Positions 4,982 through 52,356 of a stretch of 64,000 nt of DNA are shown here, in pieces (the first letter of the stretch is position 1; every line of letters starts with the position of its first letter). The position numbers and the translations under genes were made by a program. The notes below the pieces were generated by a model that saw nothing but the letters and a program-made list of their open reading frames with translations, made no database searches and was not told the DNA's origin. This stretch comes from an uncultured Faecalicatena sp. (lineage in GTDB: Bacteria; Bacillota; Clostridia; Lachnospirales; Lachnospiraceae): NCBI GenBank assembly GCA_948468385.1, contig CAOKHZ010000019.1, forward strand, positions 23,913 through 87,912, written 5' to 3'.

Positions 4982-5013
4982 TTAAAAATGTCAGTTTTAC
5001 CGGGTGATTATTT

Positions 5014-5101
5014 AACCTCATCAGGGAAGTCCCTCGCTGACTTCCTTGTTTCAGTGGGAGTATAAGCTTCCACTGAAATGCCGCGAAGCGGCAATGAGGT
5101 T
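5014..5101. repeat. Cloverleaf-like structured intergenic element
   Basis: An 8-bp outer stem (AACCTCAT 5014-5021 with ATGAGGTT 5094-5101) encloses three separate hairpins: GGAAGTC/GACTTCC (5025-5045), TTTCAGTGG/CCACTGAAA (5049-5078) and TGCCGC/GCGGCA (5079-5093). A fourth hairpin, AAGCGGAT/ATCCGCTT (5116-5138), follows outside it just before the ribosome site of the next gene. All stems are perfect. It lacks tRNA consensus features, so it is not a tRNA gene. Confidence 0.6.
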
Positions 5102-5163
5102 ATGAGCAAGTAGCAAAGCGGATTGCGAATATCCGCTTGACAATGAAAAAGGAGGCGTTTTGT

Positions 5164-5706
5164 ATGCAGTACAAATGCAGGGTCGAGGTTATCGATAAAA
5201 AGGTGTTTCCAGAGTATCAGTCGGCTTACTTGGCTGACCCCGAGAGCGGCACGTGCCCGTTTTACCAGGTGGGGGACGTGACGGTGTTTGAACGTTATGG
5301 CGGCGAGGACACGTTCTGGACGGCGGCGAAGGGGGCACATTGCGCCGAGGCGTGGGATTGCATCAGCCGTTATATTTATACGGCGTTGCAGGGCGGTTCC
5401 ATCATGCGCGGCTGGACAAATGACGAGCATATGATGATTGCTTGTTGTAATGACGGCACGCGCCCCGTGATTTTTAAAATTGAGCGGCAGGATTACAAGG
5501 TCGTGAAGATTGAGGGGATGGGCTGTGAAAAATGTGCGGGGAAGGTCGAGGATGCCTTGTCGGCGGTGAAAAATGTCGACCGTGTGGCGGTTCGCTTGGA
5601 CAAGAAGTGGGCCGAGGTATTTTGTGACAGAGCAAACGCGCCGGATGACGGGGCGTTAATCAAGGCGGTAGAAGCGGCGGGATACGAGGCCGTGGGGATT
5701 GATTAA
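5164..5706 (+). CDS. TIGR04076-type protein fused to a heavy-metal-associated (HMA) domain
   Basis: A 180-aa cytosolic protein; the start at 5164 is chosen for its AAAGGAGG site. Residues 1-110 match the TIGR04076 pattern: CRVEVIDKKVFPEYQ, a central Cys/Trp-rich part, and the typical CCNDGTRPVIFKIER ending. Residues about 112-180 form an HMA domain with the metal-binding motif GMGCEKC (Cys121, Cys124) and a closing AVEAAGYEAVGID. HMA domains carry Cu(I) or similar soft metals between chaperones and P-type ATPases. No copper ATPase or chaperone gene lies nearby. TIGR04076 proteins have no assigned function, and the fusion suggests a metal-linked one (inference). Confidence 0.8.
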   Translation: MQYKCRVEVIDKKVFPEYQSAYLADPESGTCPFYQVGDVTVFERYGGEDTFWTAAKGAHCAEAWDCISRYIYTALQGGSIMRGWTNDEHMMIACCNDGTRPVIFKIERQDYKVVKIEGMGCEKCAGKVEDALSAVKNVDRVAVRLDKKWAEVFCDRANAPDDGALIKAVEAAGYEAVGID

Positions 5707-5709
5707 TAT

Positions 5710-5837
5710 GTAAGCGGCAGACTTAACTGCAGCTTACGTATAATATGATGCGAACAGCCGCATAAGGAACTGTGCCGCTTTGCGGCTGCGACTGGTGCCA
5801 ATGGTCACGACCGATAAAATCTGTCGTGAGTATAAGT
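5710..5837. repeat. Three-hairpin intergenic repeat, copy A
   Basis: Three hairpins in a row: GTAAGCGGCAG/CTGCAGCTTAC (5710-5737), CAGCCGCA/TGCGGCTG (5755-5788) and TCACGAC..GAT/ATC..GTCGTGA (5805-5829), followed by GAGTATAA. It lies between the HMA-fusion gene and the LysR gene. A second copy of the same length and order lies at 12895-13022, and stem bases differ in compensating pairs. Confidence 0.75.
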
Positions 5838-5883
5838 TGTTGACACGCAGGAGAATGCACGGCGGTAAAGGAGGGAGCGCATA

Positions 5884-6777
5884 ATGTATAACCCCCAGCT
5901 TGAAACTTTTTTGAAAGTGGCGGACGCGGGCAGTTTCAATAAGACGGCCGAGTTGTCTTATATCACGCCCACGGCGGTAATCAAGCAGATAAATTTGTTA
6001 GAGGCAAACTTGGGAGTGAAGCTTTTTGAGCGGACGCATCGCGGGCTGGCACTTACAAAGGCGGGAGCGTCCCTCTATAAGGATGCCAAATACATGATTC
6101 AATATTGTCGGGATTCGGTCATTCGGGCGAAGAACGCCATGCAGGAGGATGAGAATGTCATTCGCATCGGAACTTCTCCGATGACCCCGGCACAGATTCT
6201 CGTGGAATTGTGGCCGAAGATTCATGAAATCTGTCCCGAAATCAAATTCCAGCTCGTCCCTTTTGAAAACACGCCGGAGAATGCGAGGGAGATTCTGAAA
6301 AACCTCGGGCAAAATATCGACGTGGTGGCGGGGATTTTTGACGACACGATGTTAAACCTGCGCCAGTGCGGCGGGTTTGAAATTTCCAGGGAGCCATTGT
6401 GCTGCGCGGTCTCGATACATCATCCCCTTGCCAGTAAAAATAAATTGTCGATTCAGGACTTGTACGGGGAAAACTTGATGCTGATGCGTCGGAACTGGAG
6501 CCGTTACGTGGATTTGTTGCGGGATGACATGTGGCAAAATCACGAGCAGATTCATCTTGTGGATTTTGATTTTTATAGCGTGGACGTGTTTAATCGCTGC
6601 GAGAACGGTAACGATGTTTTGGTGGCGGTTCAGGCGTGGGACAACGTCCACCCATTGCTAAAGGTAATTCCGGTGGAGTGGGAGCACTCCATTCCCTATG
6701 GACTGCTTCATTCCAAAACCCCGTCAGAAACGGTTGCAAGGTTTCTCGGTGCGATACAGACGGTATTACACGGGTGA
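5884..6777 (+). CDS. LysR-family transcriptional regulator
   Basis: A 297-aa regulator. Residues 1-65 form the winged helix-turn-helix (FNKTAELSYITPTAVIKQIN, then LGVKLFERTHRGLALTKAG); the remainder is the two-lobed effector-binding domain. The ATG has a strong AAAGGAGG site. It sits alone between a structured repeat and an intergenic hairpin, without a clear divergent target, so its regulon cannot be assigned. The DNA-binding half is canonical; the ligand is unknown. Confidence 0.92.
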   Translation: MYNPQLETFLKVADAGSFNKTAELSYITPTAVIKQINLLEANLGVKLFERTHRGLALTKAGASLYKDAKYMIQYCRDSVIRAKNAMQEDENVIRIGTSPMTPAQILVELWPKIHEICPEIKFQLVPFENTPENAREILKNLGQNIDVVAGIFDDTMLNLRQCGGFEISREPLCCAVSIHHPLASKNKLSIQDLYGENLMLMRRNWSRYVDLLRDDMWQNHEQIHLVDFDFYSVDVFNRCENGNDVLVAVQAWDNVHPLLKVIPVEWEHSIPYGLLHSKTPSETVARFLGAIQTVLHG

Positions 6778-6854
6778 ACAGTATTATGGGTGATATTGGG
6801 AGGTAAATGGAGGAAAAACGGTTTTGCCGTGGCAGGTATAGTTGTTTTTAGCAG

Positions 6855-6892
6855 TGCCAATGTTTGGAAGGATATGCTTCCATACATTGGCA
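6855..6892. terminator. Terminator-like hairpin after the LysR gene
   Basis: Sixteen-base arms with a single mismatch (TGCCAATGTTTGGAAG with CTTCCATACATTGGCA) and a 6-nt loop, then TTATTAA. A second, looser inverted repeat (GATGATG..CATCATT, about 6902-6945) follows. No coding sequence is seen in 6778-7068, and I could not find a convincing promoter for the next gene. Confidence 0.55.
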
Positions 6893-7068
6893 TTATTAAT
6901 GTGATGATGCCAGGGTTAAAAACCTTTTGCCCCCAACATCATTAATATTTCGGAAACATAATTTAAACATTATAAAAATAATTGACTGGTATCTTATATG
7001 GCATACCGAGGGTATTTAATGCGGGATACCCAGAGAATATAAAAAAGTAAAAAAAGGAGAGAAAAGAA

Positions 7069-7389
7069 ATGGCAAAGTCGAAATTGGTAGAAGTGAATGA
7101 AAAGATTGCAGAGGGAGTCGTGGGCGGTTACAAGAAAATCGAGGAAGGGGTCGTGGGCGGCTACAAGAAAATCGAGGAAGGAGTCGTAGGCGGCTACAAG
7201 AAAATTGAGGATAAATTCGTGGACAATTTCCTGACAAAGGAAGGAGAATCCGTGGAGGAAGCAAAGGCTCGGATGGCGGCAGAGCAAAAGGAGCGGGAAG
7301 AAAAGGCACGGGCGGCGCAAAAGGAAAGAGAAGAAAAGATGCGGTTAGAGCGAGAGGAAAGGGAAGATAAAATAGGACATACGAAATAA
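7069..7389 (+). CDS. Small charged protein with three 11-residue repeats
   Basis: A 106-aa soluble protein behind AAAAGGAGA. Residues 15-47 are three near-identical copies of EGVVGGYKKIE, encoded by a 33-bp tandem repeat at 7111-7209. Then follow a KFVDNFLTKEGESVEEAK segment and an almost uninterrupted Glu/Lys/Arg helix (residues 62-104, coiled-coil type). No signal peptide or membrane segment is seen. Similar repeat proteins exist as uncharacterised small proteins in gut Firmicutes. Function unknown; a scaffold or surface-associated role would be a guess. The gene stands alone and ends before the repeated terminator hairpin at 7506-7547. Confidence 0.75.
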   Translation: MAKSKLVEVNEKIAEGVVGGYKKIEEGVVGGYKKIEEGVVGGYKKIEDKFVDNFLTKEGESVEEAKARMAAEQKEREEKARAAQKEREEKMRLEREEREDKIGHTK

Positions 7390-7505
7390 GGATTTTTCTG
7401 ACAAGTGTGTGGTAACATCGGAAAAATGGGCTCCCGTGGCGGACAAGTTGTGGAATGCAAAATTTGAAGAGCCGTCACGAGGCTATAACCTATAGGTGCA
7501 TACTG

Positions 7506-7547
7506 ATAAACAAAACGAGACTTCTTTGGAGGTCTCGTTTTGTTTAT
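7506..7547. terminator. Repeated 16-bp-stem terminator hairpin, copy 1
   Basis: Perfect 16-bp stem ATAAACAAAACGAGAC/GTCTCGTTTTGTTTAT with a 10-nt loop. The right arm supplies the T-rich tract, and the A-rich left arm supplies one for the other strand, so it can terminate in both directions. An identical stem with a different loop lies at 14408-14449. The sequence GGCTATAACCTA also precedes both copies. Confidence 0.75.
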
Positions 7548-7594
7548 ACTATGCATTACAAGACAAGCGTATACGTCAAGGAGTGTGCAACGAT

Positions 7595-9595
7595 ATGAAA
7601 AGGATGATTGTCATGGGAATTTTGACTGCTTTACTGGTTTCTTTGCTTGGCGGTTGCGGAAATGCGAACCCGCCGGAAGGGAAGGAAGAGAGAAAAACGC
7701 AAAGGTCGGGTGCGGAAGAGGGAGGGGCGGGAAATCCATTTCTGCAAGAGTTAAAAGAAATTCCGTCAAGTTATTATTCCGCGGCCGAAGAGCAGGGGAC
7801 GCTCATGGAACTCTCATATGAGACGTATGAGTCGATGTCGTATGAGCAAAAATCGCAGAAGATAATGAAGCGAGCCATCGTATACCTTCCTTATAATTAC
7901 GATGAGGAGGAACGATATCCCGTTTTTTATTTGATGCACGGGGGATGGAGCAACGAGACGACATGGCTGGGAACGCCGGATCATCCGGAAAGATTTAAGA
8001 ACGTGATAGATCACGCGATTGCCAATCAAGAGATGGAGCCGATGATCATCGTGTGTCCGACGTACAATAATTTAAGCGGTTCTGACAGCGGGGATTATGG
8101 CCTTGCAATAAAGCTCACGGAGAATTATCACAACGAGCTGGTCAATGATTTGATGCCGGCGGTGGAGGGGACGTATAGTACCTATGCGGAAGGAACCACC
8201 GCCGAGGATTTTAGAAACAGCAGGGACTATCGTGGATTTGGCGGCTTTTCCATGGGCTCGGTCGCGACGTGGCGGACATTCGAATATTGTCTGGATTATT
8301 TCCGTTATTTTATGCCCTTGAGCGGGAGCCTGACCACGAACGGGGGCTACATGGACGAGATTGTAAAAAATTCCGGTCGGACATGGGATGAATTTTTCAT
8401 TCTGGCGATGACCGGCACGGATGATTTCGCGGCCTCGGCCTTTGAGCGGCAGATTGAGTCCATGCGGGAGTATACGGAGAGCTTTCGCTATTCGGATTCT
8501 GAGTCGGAAGGAAACCTCACGTACCGAATCAAGGAAGGGTATTCCCATGACGGAAGGGCTTCGACCGAATATGCCTACAATGGCTTTCGCTGGATCTGGC
8601 ACGAAAATACCGATGCGGTAGGCGCGGAGGATGACGGCGTAAATGCCGCCACGGTACGGTCGGGACATGACGGCGGAGATGTCGACACAATGCAGTCGGG
8701 GAACGTGGATGAGACGTTTTATACGAGGGATACGAAAATCGAGGACGTGATTTCGGATTCCGCCTTTGCGGATTATGGGAGATTGATATTTCCAGTAGAT
8801 GCGGGATACTACGGCGGAGAGACGCTTGGAGAGCTTCGGCTTACGTGGTACAGCCAGATTGACCCGGATAAGACGGTGGAAATTGCCAATTATATGAAAG
8901 GGCATGCCGAGGCGGGAGACGTCATTTTTTATGACATTTATACGGAGGAGGAAAAGGCGGTCGACCCGGAAAAGGAGGATACCGGATTATTTTTCTTCAA
9001 GGGAAATCCGGGGGAAAAGTTTGCCATATGCAATGCAGGCGGAGGGTTTGCCTATGTGGGTGCCATGCATGACAGCTTTCCCCACGCGCTGGAATTGTCC
9101 AAGAAGGGCTATAATGCGTTTGCCTTGATTTATAGGCCGGGCGCGCAGACGGCATGTGAGGATTTGGCAAGGGCGATCCGTTTTGTTTTTGAACACGCGG
9201 AGGAACTGGAAGTGGACACGGACTGCTATTCTTTGTGGGGCGGCAGTGCGGGAGGACGGATGGCGGCCTATCTTGGTTCGTATGGGACGGCGGCGTTTGG
9301 CGAGAAAGATTTACCACGGCCGGGCGCGGTGATCATGCAGTATACCGGCCATGGCGAGTATGGGGAAAATGACCCGCCGACGTATGCCTGCGTGGGGGAA
9401 AATGACGGAATCGCCAGTTGGCGTACCATGGAGAGAAGGCTCGCGCGCATGAGCGACCTTGGCATTGACACGAAGTTTCACAAATATCCGGGGCTCGGCC
9501 ATGGTTTCGGATTGGGAACGAATACGGCCGCGGATGGATGGATTGAGGACGCGGTGGCATTCTGGGAGAGACAAATGAAGGCTAAAAGAGAGTAG
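7595..9595 (+). CDS. Lipoprotein with two alpha/beta-hydrolase (esterase) domains
   Basis: A 666-aa surface lipoprotein. The start at 7595 gives MKRMIVMGILTALLVSLLGGC, a lipoprotein signal with lipobox LGGC; AAGGAG lies upstream. Residues about 60-340 are an esterase-D/feruloyl-esterase type domain (PF00756): YPVFYLMHGGWSNETTW, the nucleophile elbow GFGGFSMGS, and a late GYSHDG His. Residues about 390-665 form a second alpha/beta hydrolase with elbow LWGGSAGG, acid region VGENDG and YPGLGHGFG His. Such pairs de-esterify acetyl or feruloyl groups on plant polysaccharides. No carbohydrate-binding module is visible. It is followed by an alcohol dehydrogenase gene after 62 bp. Confidence 0.85.
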   Translation: MKRMIVMGILTALLVSLLGGCGNANPPEGKEERKTQRSGAEEGGAGNPFLQELKEIPSSYYSAAEEQGTLMELSYETYESMSYEQKSQKIMKRAIVYLPYNYDEEERYPVFYLMHGGWSNETTWLGTPDHPERFKNVIDHAIANQEMEPMIIVCPTYNNLSGSDSGDYGLAIKLTENYHNELVNDLMPAVEGTYSTYAEGTTAEDFRNSRDYRGFGGFSMGSVATWRTFEYCLDYFRYFMPLSGSLTTNGGYMDEIVKNSGRTWDEFFILAMTGTDDFAASAFERQIESMREYTESFRYSDSESEGNLTYRIKEGYSHDGRASTEYAYNGFRWIWHENTDAVGAEDDGVNAATVRSGHDGGDVDTMQSGNVDETFYTRDTKIEDVISDSAFADYGRLIFPVDAGYYGGETLGELRLTWYSQIDPDKTVEIANYMKGHAEAGDVIFYDIYTEEEKAVDPEKEDTGLFFFKGNPGEKFAICNAGGGFAYVGAMHDSFPHALELSKKGYNAFALIYRPGAQTACEDLARAIRFVFEHAEELEVDTDCYSLWGGSAGGRMAAYLGSYGTAAFGEKDLPRPGAVIMQYTGHGEYGENDPPTYACVGENDGIASWRTMERRLARMSDLGIDTKFHKYPGLGHGFGLGTNTAADGWIEDAVAFWERQMKAKRE

Positions 9596-9657
9596 AGAGA
9601 AAGTCGCAATCCGCGGCCGGTTGGGTCGCGGATAGAGACGAAAAGGAGAGAAGGGCG

Positions 9658-10827
9658 ATGAATAATTTTATTTTTGAAAACGCGACGAAAACATTTTTTG
9701 GGAAAGGGTGCGTCAAGGAATACCTGGCCTGCCTTTCCAGCCACTATGGGAAAAATGTGATGCTTTGCTATGGCGGCGGTTCCATCAAAAAGAACGGCAT
9801 TTATGACGAGGTGGTGGAAAGCCTTGTAAAGGTGGGAAAGAACGTGGTGGAGTTTTCCGGCATCATGCCGAATCCGACCTATGCAAAGGTGCTGGAGGGG
9901 GCAAGGGCGGCCAGGGAAAATGAGATAGACTTGCTGCTTGGAGTGGGAGGCGGGAGCGTGATGGACTGCTGTAAGGGCATTTCCATGGCGGCAGTCTATG
10001 ATGGTGACATTTGGGATGATTTTTTTGCAAGACCCGGTGTCATGGAGTTTGAGCCGCTTCCTTTGGGAGTCATTGTCACCGTGTCTGGAACCGGAAGTGA
10101 GATGAACGGCGGGGCGGTCATCACGAATGAGGCGTTGAAGATGAAGACAGGCCGGGATTATGCAAAATGTAACCCGAAGTTTGCGCTGATTGACCCTGCA
10201 TACATGTATAGCGTGCCGAAACGGCAGATGGTGTCCGGGGCGTTTGACACGCTGTCCCACATCATGGAGATTTATTTTAGCAAACCGGATGAGAATAATG
10301 TTTCAGATGACATCGCGGAGGCGTTGATGAAAAATGTCATCCAAAATCTGCGCGTGGCAATCGAAAATCCGCAGGATCCGGTGGCGCGAAGCAACCTGGC
10401 CTGGGATGCGGCCATGGCGGAAAACCGTATCATCAAGCTGGGCAAGCAGACGGATTTTGAGTGCCATCAGATGGAGCATCAGCTTGGAGCATACACAGAC
10501 TGCAACCATGGCGAGGGATTGGCGGTATTGCATCCGGTCTATTATCGGCATATTTACAAGGACGGGCTTTCGAAATTCTGCAGGTTTGCCGTCAACGTGT
10601 GGGGAATACCCGAAAGAGGAAAGACGGAGGAGGAATTGGCGTATGCCGGGGTGGAGGCTTTGGCGGATTTTATCCGGGAAATCGGGCTGCCTGCAACCTT
10701 GCTGGAACTGGGCGTGGACGGGAGTGTGGATTTGAAGGAAATTGCTGATTCTTGTGCCATTGCCCCGGGGAGTTATAAAAAAATGACACACGAAGAAATT
10801 TTGGAGATTTTTAAAGAAAGTTATTAA
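9658..10827 (+). CDS. Iron-containing alcohol dehydrogenase
   Basis: A 389-aa NAD(P)-dependent group III alcohol dehydrogenase (YqhD/BdhA-like). The Rossmann part shows YGGGSIKKNG and GVGGGSVMDCCKGI, then the GTGSEMNGGAVIT turn. Metal-ligand candidates are Asp/His in FDTLSHIMEIYF and the two His of HQMEHQLGAYTDCNHGEG. AAAAGGAGAG lies before the ATG. It probably reduces short-chain or detoxifies reactive aldehydes; neighbours include flavodoxins, an aldo/keto reductase and a RibD-like reductase, which fits redox handling. Confidence 0.93.
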   Translation: MNNFIFENATKTFFGKGCVKEYLACLSSHYGKNVMLCYGGGSIKKNGIYDEVVESLVKVGKNVVEFSGIMPNPTYAKVLEGARAARENEIDLLLGVGGGSVMDCCKGISMAAVYDGDIWDDFFARPGVMEFEPLPLGVIVTVSGTGSEMNGGAVITNEALKMKTGRDYAKCNPKFALIDPAYMYSVPKRQMVSGAFDTLSHIMEIYFSKPDENNVSDDIAEALMKNVIQNLRVAIENPQDPVARSNLAWDAAMAENRIIKLGKQTDFECHQMEHQLGAYTDCNHGEGLAVLHPVYYRHIYKDGLSKFCRFAVNVWGIPERGKTEEELAYAGVEALADFIREIGLPATLLELGVDGSVDLKEIADSCAIAPGSYKKMTHEEILEIFKESY

Positions 10828-10940
10828 CCGGTAAAAAGGCAGACAACGCTATGGGCGTATGGAAAAAATGCCGGAAACATGATGAAAAATCATGATAAAA
10901 GAATGTGATAAAAAGAATGTGATAAATGGAGGAGATTAGG

Positions 10941-11618
10941 ATGAAAAAGATTATCGTATTATTTTTGGGTGTATGCATGCTTATCAGTTTAGTATCTTGC
11001 GGCAAGCAAGACGACGCGTCGGGGACGGATACGAATGCGACGACGCAGGAGGGCACGGAGAATGCTTCCGGTCAGGAGACGGTGGACGGCGCGAAAGATG
11101 ACGCTTCGGGTTCCGGGGAAAATACCGGGACGGGAAAGACGCTGGTCGTATATTTTTCGGCAACGGGAAATACGAAAGAGGTCGCGGATTATATTGCGGC
11201 AGAAACGGGTGCGGACATGTTGGAATTGCAGCCGGTGGATGCCTATAGCAGCGATGATTTGAACTGGAGGGATGACGACAGCCGGGTCGTCTATGAGCAT
11301 GAGAACCCGGAGGCACGGGTGATGGAACTTGTTGAGTCCACGGTCTCAGACTGGGAGTCCTACGACACAGTATTTATCGGATATCCTATTTGGTGGGGAA
11401 TAGCCGCCTGGCCGGTGGATGCCTTTATTGCGGCCAATGATTTTACGGGCAAAACCGTGATTCCTTTCTGTACTTCCTCTACGTCCGGTTTGGGTGAGAG
11501 CGGGGAGTTGCTGGAAGAAGCGGCCGGAACGGGAAACTGGCTGGAGGGAATGCGATTTTCGTCGAATGCCTCGAAGGAGACGGTACAAAGCTGGCTTGAC
11601 GGCTTGGGAGTATCATGA
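10941..11618 (+). CDS. Flavodoxin-domain lipoprotein
   Basis: A 225-aa protein. The ATG at 10941 follows GGAGGAGATTAGG and gives a lipoprotein signal MKKIIVLFLGVCMLISLVSC. A Ser/Gly/Asp-rich linker (to about residue 60) leads to a flavodoxin fold: VVYFSATGNTKEVADYI (FMN phosphate loop), LNWRDDDSR, FIGYPIWWGIAAWPVDAF and PFCTSSTSGLGESG. This variant (Flavodoxin_4) is typical of anaerobes. Membrane anchoring of a flavodoxin on the outside implies extracytoplasmic electron transfer (inference). A second, cytosolic flavodoxin lies at 14581. Confidence 0.88.
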   Translation: MKKIIVLFLGVCMLISLVSCGKQDDASGTDTNATTQEGTENASGQETVDGAKDDASGSGENTGTGKTLVVYFSATGNTKEVADYIAAETGADMLELQPVDAYSSDDLNWRDDDSRVVYEHENPEARVMELVESTVSDWESYDTVFIGYPIWWGIAAWPVDAFIAANDFTGKTVIPFCTSSTSGLGESGELLEEAAGTGNWLEGMRFSSNASKETVQSWLDGLGVS

Positions 11619-11672
11619 GAGTTCCCGATTGAAAAAATGTATGGAGCGTGAAACGGGTGTCAGAAGCTGAGT

Positions 11673-11704
11673 GCTGCGGGGAATAGGTGGAGCCCCGCAG
11701 CTTT
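11673..11704. terminator. Intrinsic terminator between flavodoxin and LysR genes
   Basis: Nine-bp perfect stem GCTGCGGGG/CCCCGCAGC followed by TTT on the plus strand. It lies between two convergent genes. Confidence 0.7.
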
Positions 11705-11720
11705 CAGTATGGCATCCGGC

Positions 11721-12608
11721 TTACGATGTCATCTGTTGCAATTGTAATAGAAACTTCTCGGCGGCTTTTGTAAAGATCTGATATTTTTTCCACACGACAT
11801 GCAGGGTGGTTTGGGTCGCGGAGGAGAGCGGTCGGAAGCATAAATTTCCCTCCCCCGTGACATTTATGATTTTGTCAAGACAGACGGCGTATCCCATCCC
11901 TTCTTCCACCATGAGGGAGCCGTTGAAAAGAAGGTTGTATGAAGCCACGATATTTAATTTTTCTTTGTCGCATGCAAGCAGCGTAGGGAGACTAGAGTCG
12001 AAAATGGCCTGCCTGGAGACGATGAGCGGCTTGTCCCATAAATCCGTTGGCTGAATGATTTCTTTTTGAGCCAGGGGGGAGTCTCGCCGCATCAGAATTC
12101 CGAAGCGGTCTTTTGAAGGGATTTTCAAATGCTCGTACTTTGACGTGTCAAACGCGCCGAATAAAAGGCCAAAATCTAGCAATCCCCGATCCAGGTTTTC
12201 GGTCACGGTAGTCTTGTCACCGCTGACAATGTGAAAATGAACGAGCGGGTATTCTTTTTGAACGGTTCGCGCCGCTTTGGCCAAAAAGCGGACGCAGTCG
12301 GATTCTCCGGCTCCGATGGTGATGTCACCGGCAACGGTTTCATCCGTCAAGGAAATTTCATCTTCTGTTTTCTTTACCAATTCCATGATTTCTTCCGCCC
12401 GTTTGCGGAGAAGCATTCCCTCTTCCGTCAACGTGATTTTGCGGTTGCTTCGGATAAATAACTGTTTTCCGAGTTCTTCTTCCATGTCCTTTAACTGCCT
12501 GGAGAGGGTGGGCTGTGAAAGATGCAAAGATTTTGCCGCGCCGGAGATGCTCTGCTCCCTCGTGACGGCCAGAAAATATTGTAAAACACGCAATTCCATA
12601 AAATTCAA
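11721..12608 (-). CDS. LysR-family transcriptional regulator
   Basis: A 295-aa LysR protein. The N-terminal helix-turn-helix reads ISGAAKSLHLSQPTLSRQL followed by LGKQLFIRSNRKITLTEEG; the co-inducer domain runs to the end. It is transcribed away from the MATE pump gene at 13044 across a 435-bp spacer, the arrangement in which LysR proteins commonly control the divergent gene. Its target is therefore probably the MATE pump, or the convergent flavodoxin unit. Confidence 0.92.
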   Translation of the reverse strand: MNFMELRVLQYFLAVTREQSISGAAKSLHLSQPTLSRQLKDMEEELGKQLFIRSNRKITLTEEGMLLRKRAEEIMELVKKTEDEISLTDETVAGDITIGAGESDCVRFLAKAARTVQKEYPLVHFHIVSGDKTTVTENLDRGLLDFGLLFGAFDTSKYEHLKIPSKDRFGILMRRDSPLAQKEIIQPTDLWDKPLIVSRQAIFDSSLPTLLACDKEKLNIVASYNLLFNGSLMVEEGMGYAVCLDKIINVTGEGNLCFRPLSSATQTTLHVVWKKYQIFTKAAEKFLLQLQQMTS

Positions 12609-12789
12609 CCTCCTTCTGTCAAAAGTTTTCCAACTGTGTGGTTGTGCGAATTTTGCGAATGTATGAGTTGGGTGGAACGCTTAATGAAGGTGACACTTGG
12701 CCTTGTCATCATATGGTTTCTAAATGTGGTATTAGTATATCATAATGCATCATGCTTGTAAAGCATATACAAATATTTAATATAAGTAT

Positions 12790-12818
12790 TTGCTATTTAT
12801 CAGCGTGCATATTATACT
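12790..12818 (+). promoter_or_regulatory. Candidate sigma-A promoter for the MATE gene
   Basis: TTGCTA (12790-12795), a 17-base spacer and TATACT (12813-12818). It lies in the LysR-MATE divergent spacer (12609-13043), which otherwise holds AT-rich palindromic stretches near 12730-12790 and copy B of the three-hairpin repeat. The transcript would begin with that repeat. Confidence 0.45.
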
Positions 12819-12894
12819 ATTCTCATGGAAAATGAAAAGCAAGTCATACGACCGGCTTGAGAAGGATAGGATTCACTGTCAACCCGGTTGTATA

Positions 12895-13022
12895 CTGAGC
12901 GGCAGATTTGACTGCCGTTCAGTATAATATGATGCGCACAGCCGCATAGGGAAATATGCCGCTTTGCGGCTGCGGCTGGCGCAATACTCACGGCAGATAA
13001 AATCTGTCGCGAGTATAAATTG
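12895..13022. repeat. Three-hairpin intergenic repeat, copy B
   Basis: Same order as copy A: CTGAGCGGCAG/CTGCCGTTCAG (12895-12922), CAGCCGCA/TGCGGCTG (12939-12972) and ACTCACGGCAGAT/ATCTGTCGCGAGT (12986-13014), then ATAAATTGT. The first stem pairs in both copies although its outer bases differ (GTAAGC/GCTTAC in A, CTGAGC/GTTCAG in B). It ends about 20 bases before the MATE start codon. Confidence 0.75.
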
Positions 13023-13043: not shown

Positions 13044-14390
13044 ATGGAAAAAGAAAATAAGATGGGAACGGGTGCGATTCCTTCATTACTGCTAAAGACG
13101 GCAATCCCGTTGATGCTTTCGTTGCTTGCAAATAATTTGTATAACATGGTGGATAGCATTTTTATCTCGCATATGAGCGAGGATGCCCTGACCGCGCTTT
13201 CCATGGCATCCCCGGTGCAGCAGCTGATGGCGGCGCTTGGCTGCGGAATCGCGGTGGGACTGAATGCGGCGGTTTCCAAGGCATTGGGGGAGAAAAACCC
13301 GGAGAAGGCAAAAAATACGGCATCCGCGGCAATTTTTCTGGGAATCTGCGCGTGGGTAATCATTATAGTGTGCTGCATTCTGTTTGTACGGCCGTATTTC
13401 CAATGGCAGGCGGGGCAGAACCAAAGAATCGCGGAGTACGGCGTCTCCTATCTTGAAATATGCATGCTGTTTTCCTTGGGACAAATGATGCAATGGGTGT
13501 TTGACCGCCTGATTATTGCCAATGCAAAATCCATGTTATTTTTGATAACGCTTGGCACGGCGGCGGTCGTGAACCTGATTTTAGACCCTATTTTCATCTT
13601 CGGACTCCTGGGATTTGCACCGATGGGAACCGCGGGAGCGGCATTGGCGACCGTGATAGGACAAAGCTGCGGAGCCGTTCTGGGCGTGATTTTAAATATC
13701 CGGTACAATAAGGAAATTCCAATCCGGTTTACCATAAAGCCGGATGGACGCATGATACTTGACATATTGCGGGTGGGGATACCGACTTCCATCATGCAAG
13801 GGCTGGTATCTGTCATGGGAATCGTAATGAACACGATTTTATACGGTTTTTCCTCAACGGCGGTCGCGGTATATGGAATTTGCGCGAGAGTCCAAAATCT
13901 CGCCGGGATTCCCGTGCATGGCATTGACAATGGGCTGATTCCAATCGTGGCATACAATTATGGTGCCAGGAAGAGAAAACGGATTGACGAAAGCATCCGG
14001 TGGGCATTTATTTACGCGATGACATTGACCGGAATTGTAATCGTGCTGTTGGAGATGTTCCCGGCTCCGCTGCTTGCCTTGTTTGACGCGTCGGAAACGA
14101 TGTTGGCCATCGGGGTTCCTGCCATCCGGATTTTGGCGGTTGGCTGGCTGCTTTCCGTGTTCGGCTTTGTAATCGGTACTACGTTTCAGGCACTGGGAAA
14201 CGGAGGTTACAGTATGTACGTGACGGTCATGCGGCAGGTGGCGCTGCCGATTGGATTTGCCATGCTTTTCTCGAGGACGGGGAATCTCCGGATGATTTGG
14301 GTGGCTTTTTTAATGGCGGAAATATTGACGATACCACTGGTGGTTTTCTTGTTTGGAAAAACGAAGAGAATGGTTTTGAACCGGCTATAA
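13044..14390 (+). CDS. MATE-family multidrug efflux transporter
   Basis: A 448-aa inner-membrane antiporter with about 12 hydrophobic segments in two homologous halves. Family marks are LKTAIPLMLSLLANNLYNMV near the start, MASPVQQLMAALGCGIAVG, and NLILDPIFIFGLLGFAPMG at the end of the first half. MATE proteins export cationic drugs or metabolites with H+ or Na+. AAGGGAG precedes the ATG. The coding region ends with the GGCTATAACCTA segment that also precedes the other copy of the 16-bp hairpin. The divergent LysR is its likely regulator. Confidence 0.93.
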   Translation: MEKENKMGTGAIPSLLLKTAIPLMLSLLANNLYNMVDSIFISHMSEDALTALSMASPVQQLMAALGCGIAVGLNAAVSKALGEKNPEKAKNTASAAIFLGICAWVIIIVCCILFVRPYFQWQAGQNQRIAEYGVSYLEICMLFSLGQMMQWVFDRLIIANAKSMLFLITLGTAAVVNLILDPIFIFGLLGFAPMGTAGAALATVIGQSCGAVLGVILNIRYNKEIPIRFTIKPDGRMILDILRVGIPTSIMQGLVSVMGIVMNTILYGFSSTAVAVYGICARVQNLAGIPVHGIDNGLIPIVAYNYGARKRKRIDESIRWAFIYAMTLTGIVIVLLEMFPAPLLALFDASETMLAIGVPAIRILAVGWLLSVFGFVIGTTFQALGNGGYSMYVTVMRQVALPIGFAMLFSRTGNLRMIWVAFLMAEILTIPLVVFLFGKTKRMVLNRL

Positions 14391-25878: not shown

Positions 25879-26103
25879 ATATCAGATGTGGAATGACTCC
25901 AGCCTCTATAGGCGGTGAGCAACATAATTGTATCAGTGGCGGGAGTCATTCCCCCATCTGATATGCCTCCGGCGGGCGCTGGACGTCCAGTGGACGTCCG
26001 TTTAGCGCCGACCGTAACGGAGTGAAGAGGCAGGCGCACAAAGATGTATTTTGTCAGCATAGCTGACTTGTGCGCCGCCGCAAGAACGCCAGTGGTGTTC
26101 TTG
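25879..26103. repeat. Hairpin-rich intergenic region before the two-component system
   Basis: Between 25457 and 26166 no gene is seen. The right part holds consecutive hairpins: a 21-bp stem ATATCAGATG..GGAATGACTCC with its complement (25879-25964); GGCGCT..AGCGCC around the pair GGACGTCC/GGACGTCC (25975-26009), with CCGTAACGG beside it, both enclosed by GCCTC/GAGGC (25965-26031); GGCGCACAA..GTCAGC/GCTGAC..TTGTGCGCC (26033-26076); and CAAGAAC..GTTCTTG (26081-26103). All lie in the probable 5' leader of the response-regulator gene. Confidence 0.6.
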
Positions 26104-26166
26104 AATTGAAAAGACGCGGAGAATATTTGACACTATCAGAGGTAGAAAAGGAAAAGAGGTAATCCC

Positions 26167-52034: not shown

Positions 52035-52356
52035 GGTAAATAGGCGGCAGGCATGACGGCCGTGACATAGGAAAAGGCAGTGACCATGCAAAGTAGAGAA
52101 CCATTTTCCATCAGAGAGGGAGAACCACCGGCTGAAAGTTTTCCTTGGTTTGGATGGCAATCGAATTTCACATGTGAGCCGCATCGTTGAACGTGGAGGG
52201 TCAAGAACCATTTAGGGAATGGTTTTGGGTGGTTTCCAAGTAGGGGATGACGTAGGTCGTACGTTACACGACAATTGAGTGTCCATGAGTTTATCATGGG
52301 AATCAGGGTGGTACCGCGAATGAAGCATTCGTCCCTTTTGGGATGGGTGCTTTTTG
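52035..52356 (+). promoter_or_regulatory. T-box riboswitch of pheS-pheT
   Basis: The conserved T-box sequence AGGGTGGTACCGCG is at 52307-52320. Upstream lies a stem I-type region with AGAGAGGGAG (52113-52122) and a specifier-loop candidate GAATTTCACA in which TTC (52167-52169) is the Phe codon. Downstream is a terminator. Uncharged tRNA-Phe is expected to pair with the specifier and the T-box bulge and allow transcription. Start and specifier positions are inferred. Confidence 0.92.
52324..52356 (+). terminator. T-box regulated terminator
   Basis: A 12-bp stem AGCATTCGTCCC/GGGATGGGTGCT, with G-T pairs, then TTTTT. Its left arm overlaps the region that would form the antiterminator with the T-box. 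Confidence 0.85.

Follow-up and report, generated by a model that had tools for sequence, protein, structure and literature searches.

What is a three-hairpin sequence doing at two places of the same 64-kb stretch, each time a short distance in front of a different kind of gene? The stretch, called the window here and numbered from its first letter, is 64,000 nt of contig CAOKHZ010000019.1 from an uncultured Faecalicatena sp., whose own genome is 4.25 Mb in 62 contigs. An original prediction, made from the letters alone, pointed out two copies of about 128 bp with their hairpins in identical order, both just 5' of a start codon, and offered a choice between a mobile hairpin element and a cis-regulatory RNA family. 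Both copies are present. We consider them very probably to be copies of a gene-less mobile repeat, non-autonomous and of the miniature inverted-repeat transposable element (MITE) or small-mobile-sequence type, which a transposase acting in trans would move into TA. The mobile half of the choice is supported by dispersal, by one exact empty site and two partial ones, by identical copies in unrelated flanks and by patchy occurrence within the genus, and the cis-regulatory RNA half was not established.

The two copies belong to a family dispersed through the own genome and its relatives. Used as a DNA query, the first copy finds 29 own-genome matches, the weaker of which span a single hairpin. 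A covariance model (CM) built from 15 own-genome copies gives 69 matches there at E ≤ 0.01, with 24 clear copies at 54.9 bits or more (E ≤ 7.7 × 10−10), and many of the remaining matches are weak, are single hairpins, or are the opposite strand of a palindrome. In a search of 41 genomes of relatives, 12 (own included) have a match at E ≤ 0.01. The 12 same-genus genomes have between 0 and 79 matches each at that threshold, with 42 to 79 in G000, G001, G002, G007 and G008 (79 in G001), 11 in G006, 2 in G009, 1 in G004, and none in G003, G005, G010 and G011. A 19-base core pattern occurs in at least 117 stretches of the named genome collection, and among the matches listed all sources but two are Lachnospiraceae or other Clostridia; the two outliers (Prochlorococcus, Dehalococcoidia) have no CM match at E ≤ 10−9. 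The second copy has no match in the plasmid and phage collections, and a plasmid or phage origin was dropped.

Occupancy differs between orthologous loci at three sites. The LysR/MATE locus of genome G008, at about 90% identity, is without the second window copy, and the comparison of empty GTTG-TA-AATTG with occupied GTTG-TA-[123 bp]-TA-AATTG has one TA against two. Locus L134, occupied where the own genome is empty, fits TA with one substitution. The own-genome locus L011, occupied where L176 is empty, has an exact left junction (GTTA), and the right junction of L176 is decayed, its TA reading TC in a diverged flank. Target-site duplication is indicated by one exact TA case and two consistent sites. 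Five letter-identical copies of 127 bp stand in unrelated flanks. The ends are intact in 77 of the 124 distinct copies, and among these a T precedes the first TA in 59 and an A follows the last TA in 52. The left end, TATACTGAGnGGCAG, resembles the reverse-complemented right end, TATACTCACGGCAG, so the two form terminal inverted repeats, imperfect ones, each of which is also palindromic.

As expected of a MITE, the element is short (127 bp), has no transposase gene, and is present in many dispersed copies. Its reading frame from the core triplet is short, mostly 14 to 18 codons. At a GC content of 0.50, compared with 0.48 in 314 kb of own DNA, it is not A+T-rich, a property that is typical of MITEs and not required. 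To our knowledge an autonomous relative is often not known for bacterial MITEs. The features of the two window copies, with the neighbouring genes last, are as follows.

12891 to 13017, + strand: intact copy, spanning both TAs with 123 bp in between (CM 142.9 bits; G008 empty site with a single TA)
12891 to 12892, no strand: left target TA (occupied/empty comparison with L206/L216)
13016 to 13017, no strand: right target TA (same comparison)
12891 to 12926, + strand: hairpin 1, palindromic left end TATACTGAGCGGCAG...CTGCCGTTCAGTATA (minimum-energy fold; covariation helix 1)
12933 to 12983, + strand: hairpin 2, the core (minimum-energy fold; core common to family B, described below)
12984 to 13016, + strand: hairpin 3, palindromic right end (minimum-energy fold; covariation helix 5)
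5705 to 5834, + strand: older copy of the element (CM 110.7 bits; alignment)
5706 to 5741, + strand: hairpin 1 of the older copy (minimum-energy fold)
5801 to 5833, + strand: hairpin 3 of the older copy (minimum-energy fold)
5884 to 6777, + strand: LysR-type regulator 3' of copy 1, a neighbour outside the element (Pfam HTH_1 and LysR_substrate)
13044 to 14390, + strand: MATE efflux protein 3' of copy 2, a neighbour outside the element (Pfam MatE)

These boundaries lie about 5 bases to the left of those first drawn. The second copy is bounded TA to TA; the older one has AA at the expected left TA and an intact right TA, and begins on the stop codon of an upstream HMA-domain open reading frame (ORF) at 5137-5706. 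In the second copy hairpin 1 runs from TATACT to AGTATA, and the palindrome of hairpin 3 ends in GAGTATA; the reverse complement of hairpin 3, taken with base 13017, starts TATACTCGCGACAGAT and resembles the left end. Hairpins 1 and 2 are separated by a short linker. Hairpin 2 consists of an outer stem, an unpaired, purine-rich stretch of 11 nt, TAGGGAAATAT (12947-12957), and an apical GCCGC-TTT-GCGGC stem. The fold of the second copy has an energy of -74.6 kcal/mol (z -10.6); that of the first, a more decayed copy whose hairpin 2 folds partially, has -49.8 kcal/mol (z -5.0). None of 200 shuffles is as stable in either case. From the end of copy 1 to the LysR start there are 49 bases, and from the end of copy 2 to the MatE start 26, so the copies do stand just 5' of start codons and do adjoin different gene types. 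The CM search finds no third strong copy in the window; the next-best place, 25997-26105, is a weak match (20.9 bits, E = 0.0019) and is perhaps a decayed copy.

We propose the following course of events. The element, some 125 bp long and without an evident gene, would carry ends TACTGAGnGGCAG and TACTCACGGCAG as imperfect inverted repeats, each end itself palindromic and able to form hairpin 1 or 3. A putative transposase in trans would insert it at TA, with a preference for the context T-TA-A, and would duplicate the TA. After insertion the palindromes would be open to processing as DNA hairpins: their inside may flip at its site, and where mutations have broken pairs, copying from one arm to the other may mend them. 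At times the middle would drop out, apparently through a deletion that runs from one of the similar 5' arms (hairpin 1) to the other (hairpin 3), with a single chimeric hairpin left over. Copies that land in transcribed leaders would become part of the mRNA, and a bias toward the sense strand suggests selection against antisense copies or retention of sense ones.

Traces of such hairpin events can be found at individual loci. The own-genome site C8:99652 is fully occupied, and its G001 ortholog L381 has in its place a single 36-bp hairpin, in which the left half of hairpin 1 is fused to the right half of hairpin 3. Locus L427 has a chimeric solo hairpin of the same type, and another was read by eye at own C5:2238-2272. 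Loci L063 (G007) and L064 (G002) are orthologs, with flank identities of 98.7 and 99.7% over 300 bp, and differ at six bases, five of them within hairpin 1. When the inside of hairpin 1 is turned round at its site, a single difference remains there; loop and mismatch positions were altered, and one mismatch became a pair. This inversion is a DNA-level hairpin event. Among 50 distinct hairpin-1 cores there is one exactly reverse-complementary pair, and hairpin 3, compared with its consensus, is forward in 77 copies, reversed in 17 and neither in 3 (97 callable of 124 copies).

Single hairpins, either hairpin 3 or hairpin 1 alone with the full element not evident, also occur at own C25:41637, C10:58397, C2:82926, C16:35760 and C20:1073, and are possibly remnants. 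Loci L095 (1834-2037), L116 and L144, which have different flanks, have in common a variant of the element with a longer hairpin, about 100 bp, in the place of hairpin 3; the extension common to these loci is this longer 3' hairpin and no gene for a transposase.

The original prediction read the base differences in the outer stem of hairpin 1 that still pair as a sign of selection on RNA structure. Those differences are there, within a wider pattern: in the alignment of 15 own-genome copies, with 93.9% of cells paired, two-sided changes are seen in 16 of 42 pairs (7 of 12 in helix 1), far above the shuffled mean of 5.3. None of 500 column shuffles reaches 16, and slid structures give 2 to 4. 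The covariation between paired bases is real. The step from there to RNA selection is not secured, because palindromic ends may stay paired for DNA reasons (end recognition, hairpin processing) and because seven ortholog pairs show zero two-sided compensation. Those pairs have 24 differing positions. Of these, 17 are unpaired on the minimum-energy fold, and the others break a pair in 3 cases, keep one through a change on one side in 4, and in none change both sides; a sample of seven is too small to settle the cause of the covariation. Matching changes in a hairpin are by themselves no proof of a regulatory RNA.

Inversion was dropped as the origin of two-sided changes, because a perfect stem has the same Watson-Crick pairs after inversion as before; what it shows is hairpin processing. 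Template switching in replication is reported to create stems and to fix their pairing (PMC8794818), and is a candidate cause beside RNA selection and selection on palindromic DNA ends. The element illustrates how strong covariation can occur in a mobile palindrome, whose stems could be held paired by RNA selection, by selection on DNA ends or by hairpin processing, and pipelines for RNA discovery that count covarying pairs need such caution.

Among known repeats the closest comparison is BOX, of Streptococcus pneumoniae and relatives. The one copy compared, which we take to be BOX and which was found with a sequence that we presume to be BOX, runs from ATACTCAATG to GAAGAGTAT, with termini like those of the element; the full form TATACTC/GAGTATA is likewise assumed. 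With this one copy as the standard, the termini ATACTC...GAGTAT are matched by the element's right end and its reverse complement, and the left end is mostly ATACTG. There is no alignment longer than 14 bases (best E = 1.1), the boxA, boxB and boxC modules were not encountered, and the BOX copy folds with its two ends paired together, whereas the ends of the element are separate palindromes. Like the element, BOX is multi-hairpin, modular and present in many copies. Terminal inverted repeats and target duplications are reported for it, and BOX, RUP and SPRITE belong to the known kind of small mobile sequences with such features (PMC3049150). Pneumococcal repeats are also reported to be over-represented between convergent genes (PMC3049150), where the element has 12 of its 90 placed copies, a raw count.

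ERIC, RUP and the Correia repeats are known members of the small mobile sequences: they have TA termini and inverted repeats and duplicate their target (PMC2229807). RUP of S. pneumoniae, at 107 bp with a TA target, TA termini and target duplication, is alike (PMC2229807), and differs in having a proposed IS630 partner, while the own genome here is without a DDE_3 match; the likeness is by description only. A RUP-like or IS630-borne MITE was rejected on that ground, and the four DDE_3 loci above cut-off in relatives are without element ends. ERIC/RU-1 of enterobacteria is similar in length at 127 bp (PMC2759123) and in its TA termini and target duplication (PMC2229807), and differs in host lineage; it too is likened by description only. 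REP/BIME repeats with RAYT are palindromic, intergenic and in many copies, as the element is (PMC2817692), but the own genome has no Y1 match and the flank of the element is constant only as T-TA-A; a REP with RAYT was rejected since no own-genome Y1 transposase is flanked by the repeat. We class the element as a new family of the small-mobile-sequence kind, one that would work like BOX or RUP and is a member of neither.

How the copies lie relative to genes was determined with a crude ORF caller for 24 copies of the own genome and 110 from elsewhere. The latter comprise 80 that no contig end interrupts and 30 of the 64 in a further set, the other 34 being own or repeated loci and a few further ones not taken; 122 were kept after removing repeats and loci of a distant family. 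Of these, 47 point with tandem genes and 16 against them, divergent genes flank 15 and convergent genes 12, another 14 overlap an ORF that the crude caller gave, and 18 are at locus edges. The split of 47 to 16 has p = 1.2 × 10−4. There is a co-directional gene downstream of 62 of the 122, with a median of 38 bp from the right end to its start (n = 62), and the median from the left end to a start facing it is 109 bp (n = 31).

The orientation bias may come from selection in leaders. A reading compatible with the mobile repeat is that many copies are kept as working parts of mRNA leaders, acting on stability, RNase processing or translation, which we hold as a real, if minority, possibility. 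It is favored by the bias itself and by sense copies being nearer to starts. Between convergent or divergent genes the strand also does not track local G-C skew, 8 of 17 informative loci being on the G-rich strand. BIME, ERIC and Correia repeats are described as altering mRNA fate once transcribed (PMC3049150). Against it, the ORF calls are crude, and in tandem loci strand skew and gene direction are inseparable. Replication-strand preference was set aside as the cause of the orientation, though it may play a part: the 17 loci are too few, and skew is confounded with gene direction. The left-end TATACT was rejected as a promoter: -35-like hexamers with at least 4 matches stand at the proper spacing in 22 of 127 copies, compared with 11 to 25 of 127 at shifted positions.

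A second repeat, family B, is related to the element (family A). Its pattern GGGGATGCGCACT has 22 sites in the own genome and 0 in a reversed control, and is found in 6 of 120 genomes taken one per genus. Family B is a three-hairpin repeat with a core GGGGATGCGCACT...TAAGGAAAATGG at those 22 sites (for example L307, L315 and L275), with the order hairpin 1 - core - hairpin 3 as in family A, and with the shared core GGATGCGCAC-stem-TAAGGAAA-ATG-hairpin-stem-GGCGC. The sequences of hairpins 1 and 3 differ from those of family A, and many copies of B lie, by eye, directly 3' of terminator-like hairpins with T-runs. The family A model matches 5 of the 22 copies, at E from 1.7 × 10−4 to 0.0085. The two families share the core and not the ends. 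No published account of such a repeat in Lachnospiraceae was found in a literature search without most subscription journals, and the two are apparently a related pair of repeat families in gut Lachnospiraceae, undescribed so far, which sit near start codons and may retune the genes beside them.

The cores of both families have an unpaired AAGGAA or AGGGAA and then ATG at the foot of the apical stem (for example at window 12947-12958), which is similar to a ribosome-binding site. In the 24 own copies the start-like triplet is ATG in 14, ATA in 3, CTG in 3, GTG in 1, TTG in 1, and not found in 2, and a mini-ORF in the core was rejected since the triplet varies (ATG in 14 of 24) and coding is unsupported. 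The core, with AAGGAA by an ATG-like triplet, might be a functional module of structured RNA or single-stranded DNA, riding on at least two mobile families with unrelated ends and needed for spread or for tolerance through contact with the ribosome or a host factor. This would explain the sense bias, and we put it forward as a conjecture of low probability; if true, these would be mobile elements carrying a leader module that plugs into 5' untranslated regions.

That the element is primarily a cis-regulatory RNA family of leaders (an attenuator, something riboswitch-like, or translational control), with stems kept by RNA selection, is improbable. The strong covariation over 15 copies argues for it, as do the 47 of 63 tandem-gene copies that point with the genes, the median of 38 bp from a copy to a co-directional downstream start, and the recurrence in the core of the unpaired purine-rich AAGGAA and the start-like triplet. 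That triplet is, however, ATA, CTG or TTG in 7 of the 22 readable own copies, the two downstream genes examined (LysR, MatE) are unrelated, occupancy varies among orthologous loci, the next gene is on the other strand for 28 of the 90 placed copies, copies inspected have no T-run after hairpin 3, and the ortholog differences given above include no two-sided change.

Nor is there a match in Rfam, in keeping with the earlier remark that the element is not recognised as a known riboswitch. At the gathering score the window has a T-box alone, elsewhere (52071-52339, RF00230, 103.9 bits), and nothing on the element; at E ≤ 5 each copy was searched with one sub-threshold, chance-like match; 14 distant relatives have a T-box and a SAM riboswitch nearby only; and one family B copy has seven matches, all far below gathering. 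A known Rfam family was rejected, as no score was above the gathering cut-off.

Several observations weigh against the mobile repeat moved in trans. One is the partner: four transposase families were searched and 53 loci inspected with no autonomous partner found, and none of the 53 is bounded by a matching pair of element ends. The sense bias is not explained by transposition alone. The evidence for inversion is a single orthologous pair, and a stricter rule gives no further near-inverted pair among the 50 distinct hairpin-1 cores. The core is common to a family with different ends, which is unusual if end recognition alone matters.

The search covered DDE_3, Y1_Tnp and DDE_Tnp_1_2 in the 12 same-genus genomes and DDE_Tnp_1 in four of them. 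DDE_3 and DDE_Tnp_1_2 have no match in the own genome or G001, Y1_Tnp matches nothing in the own genome and gives a single partial match in G001, and DDE_Tnp_1 has 2 in the own genome and 4 in G001. Locus L236 has a TATACT and an AGTATA at a distance of 648 bp, the sequences behind the two being unlike, and the transposase loci L258 and L427 have a single hairpin each. A scan of loci for single hairpins likewise gave no transposon with the element's ends. A multicopy insertion sequence may be missing because the assemblies are fragmented, with about 500 contigs in G001 and 62 in the own genome. Another rival, very improbable, is a REP or IS200/IS605-like element that a hairpin-recognising Y1 (HUH) transposase would move in single-stranded form and whose extra TA would be its own, with no duplication: it would suit the hairpin ends and the occurrence of Y1_Tnp in 8 of the 12 same-genus genomes, and one extra TA alone cannot separate duplication from an element-carried TA, but the own genome lacks a Y1_Tnp match, flank constancy ends at T-TA-A, and no Y1 locus inspected has the element ends as a pair, L258 having one solo hairpin.

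There are other repeats as well. A third, A+T-richer repeat, at G114 loci among L286-L310, has GGGGATGCGCACTAAAACCGCGC and a hairpin ATAATGTC...GACATTAT, and its pattern occurs exactly at ten places in a single genome from a different genus. Immediately 3' of a T-box leader in G009 (L068) there is a family B-like element. Just 5' of copy 1, window 5011-5143 belongs to a separate repeat family with a predicted multi-branched cloverleaf fold (-63.5 kcal/mol, z -7.8); at least 8 more matches to it lie in the own genome, and G001 and G008 have some as well.

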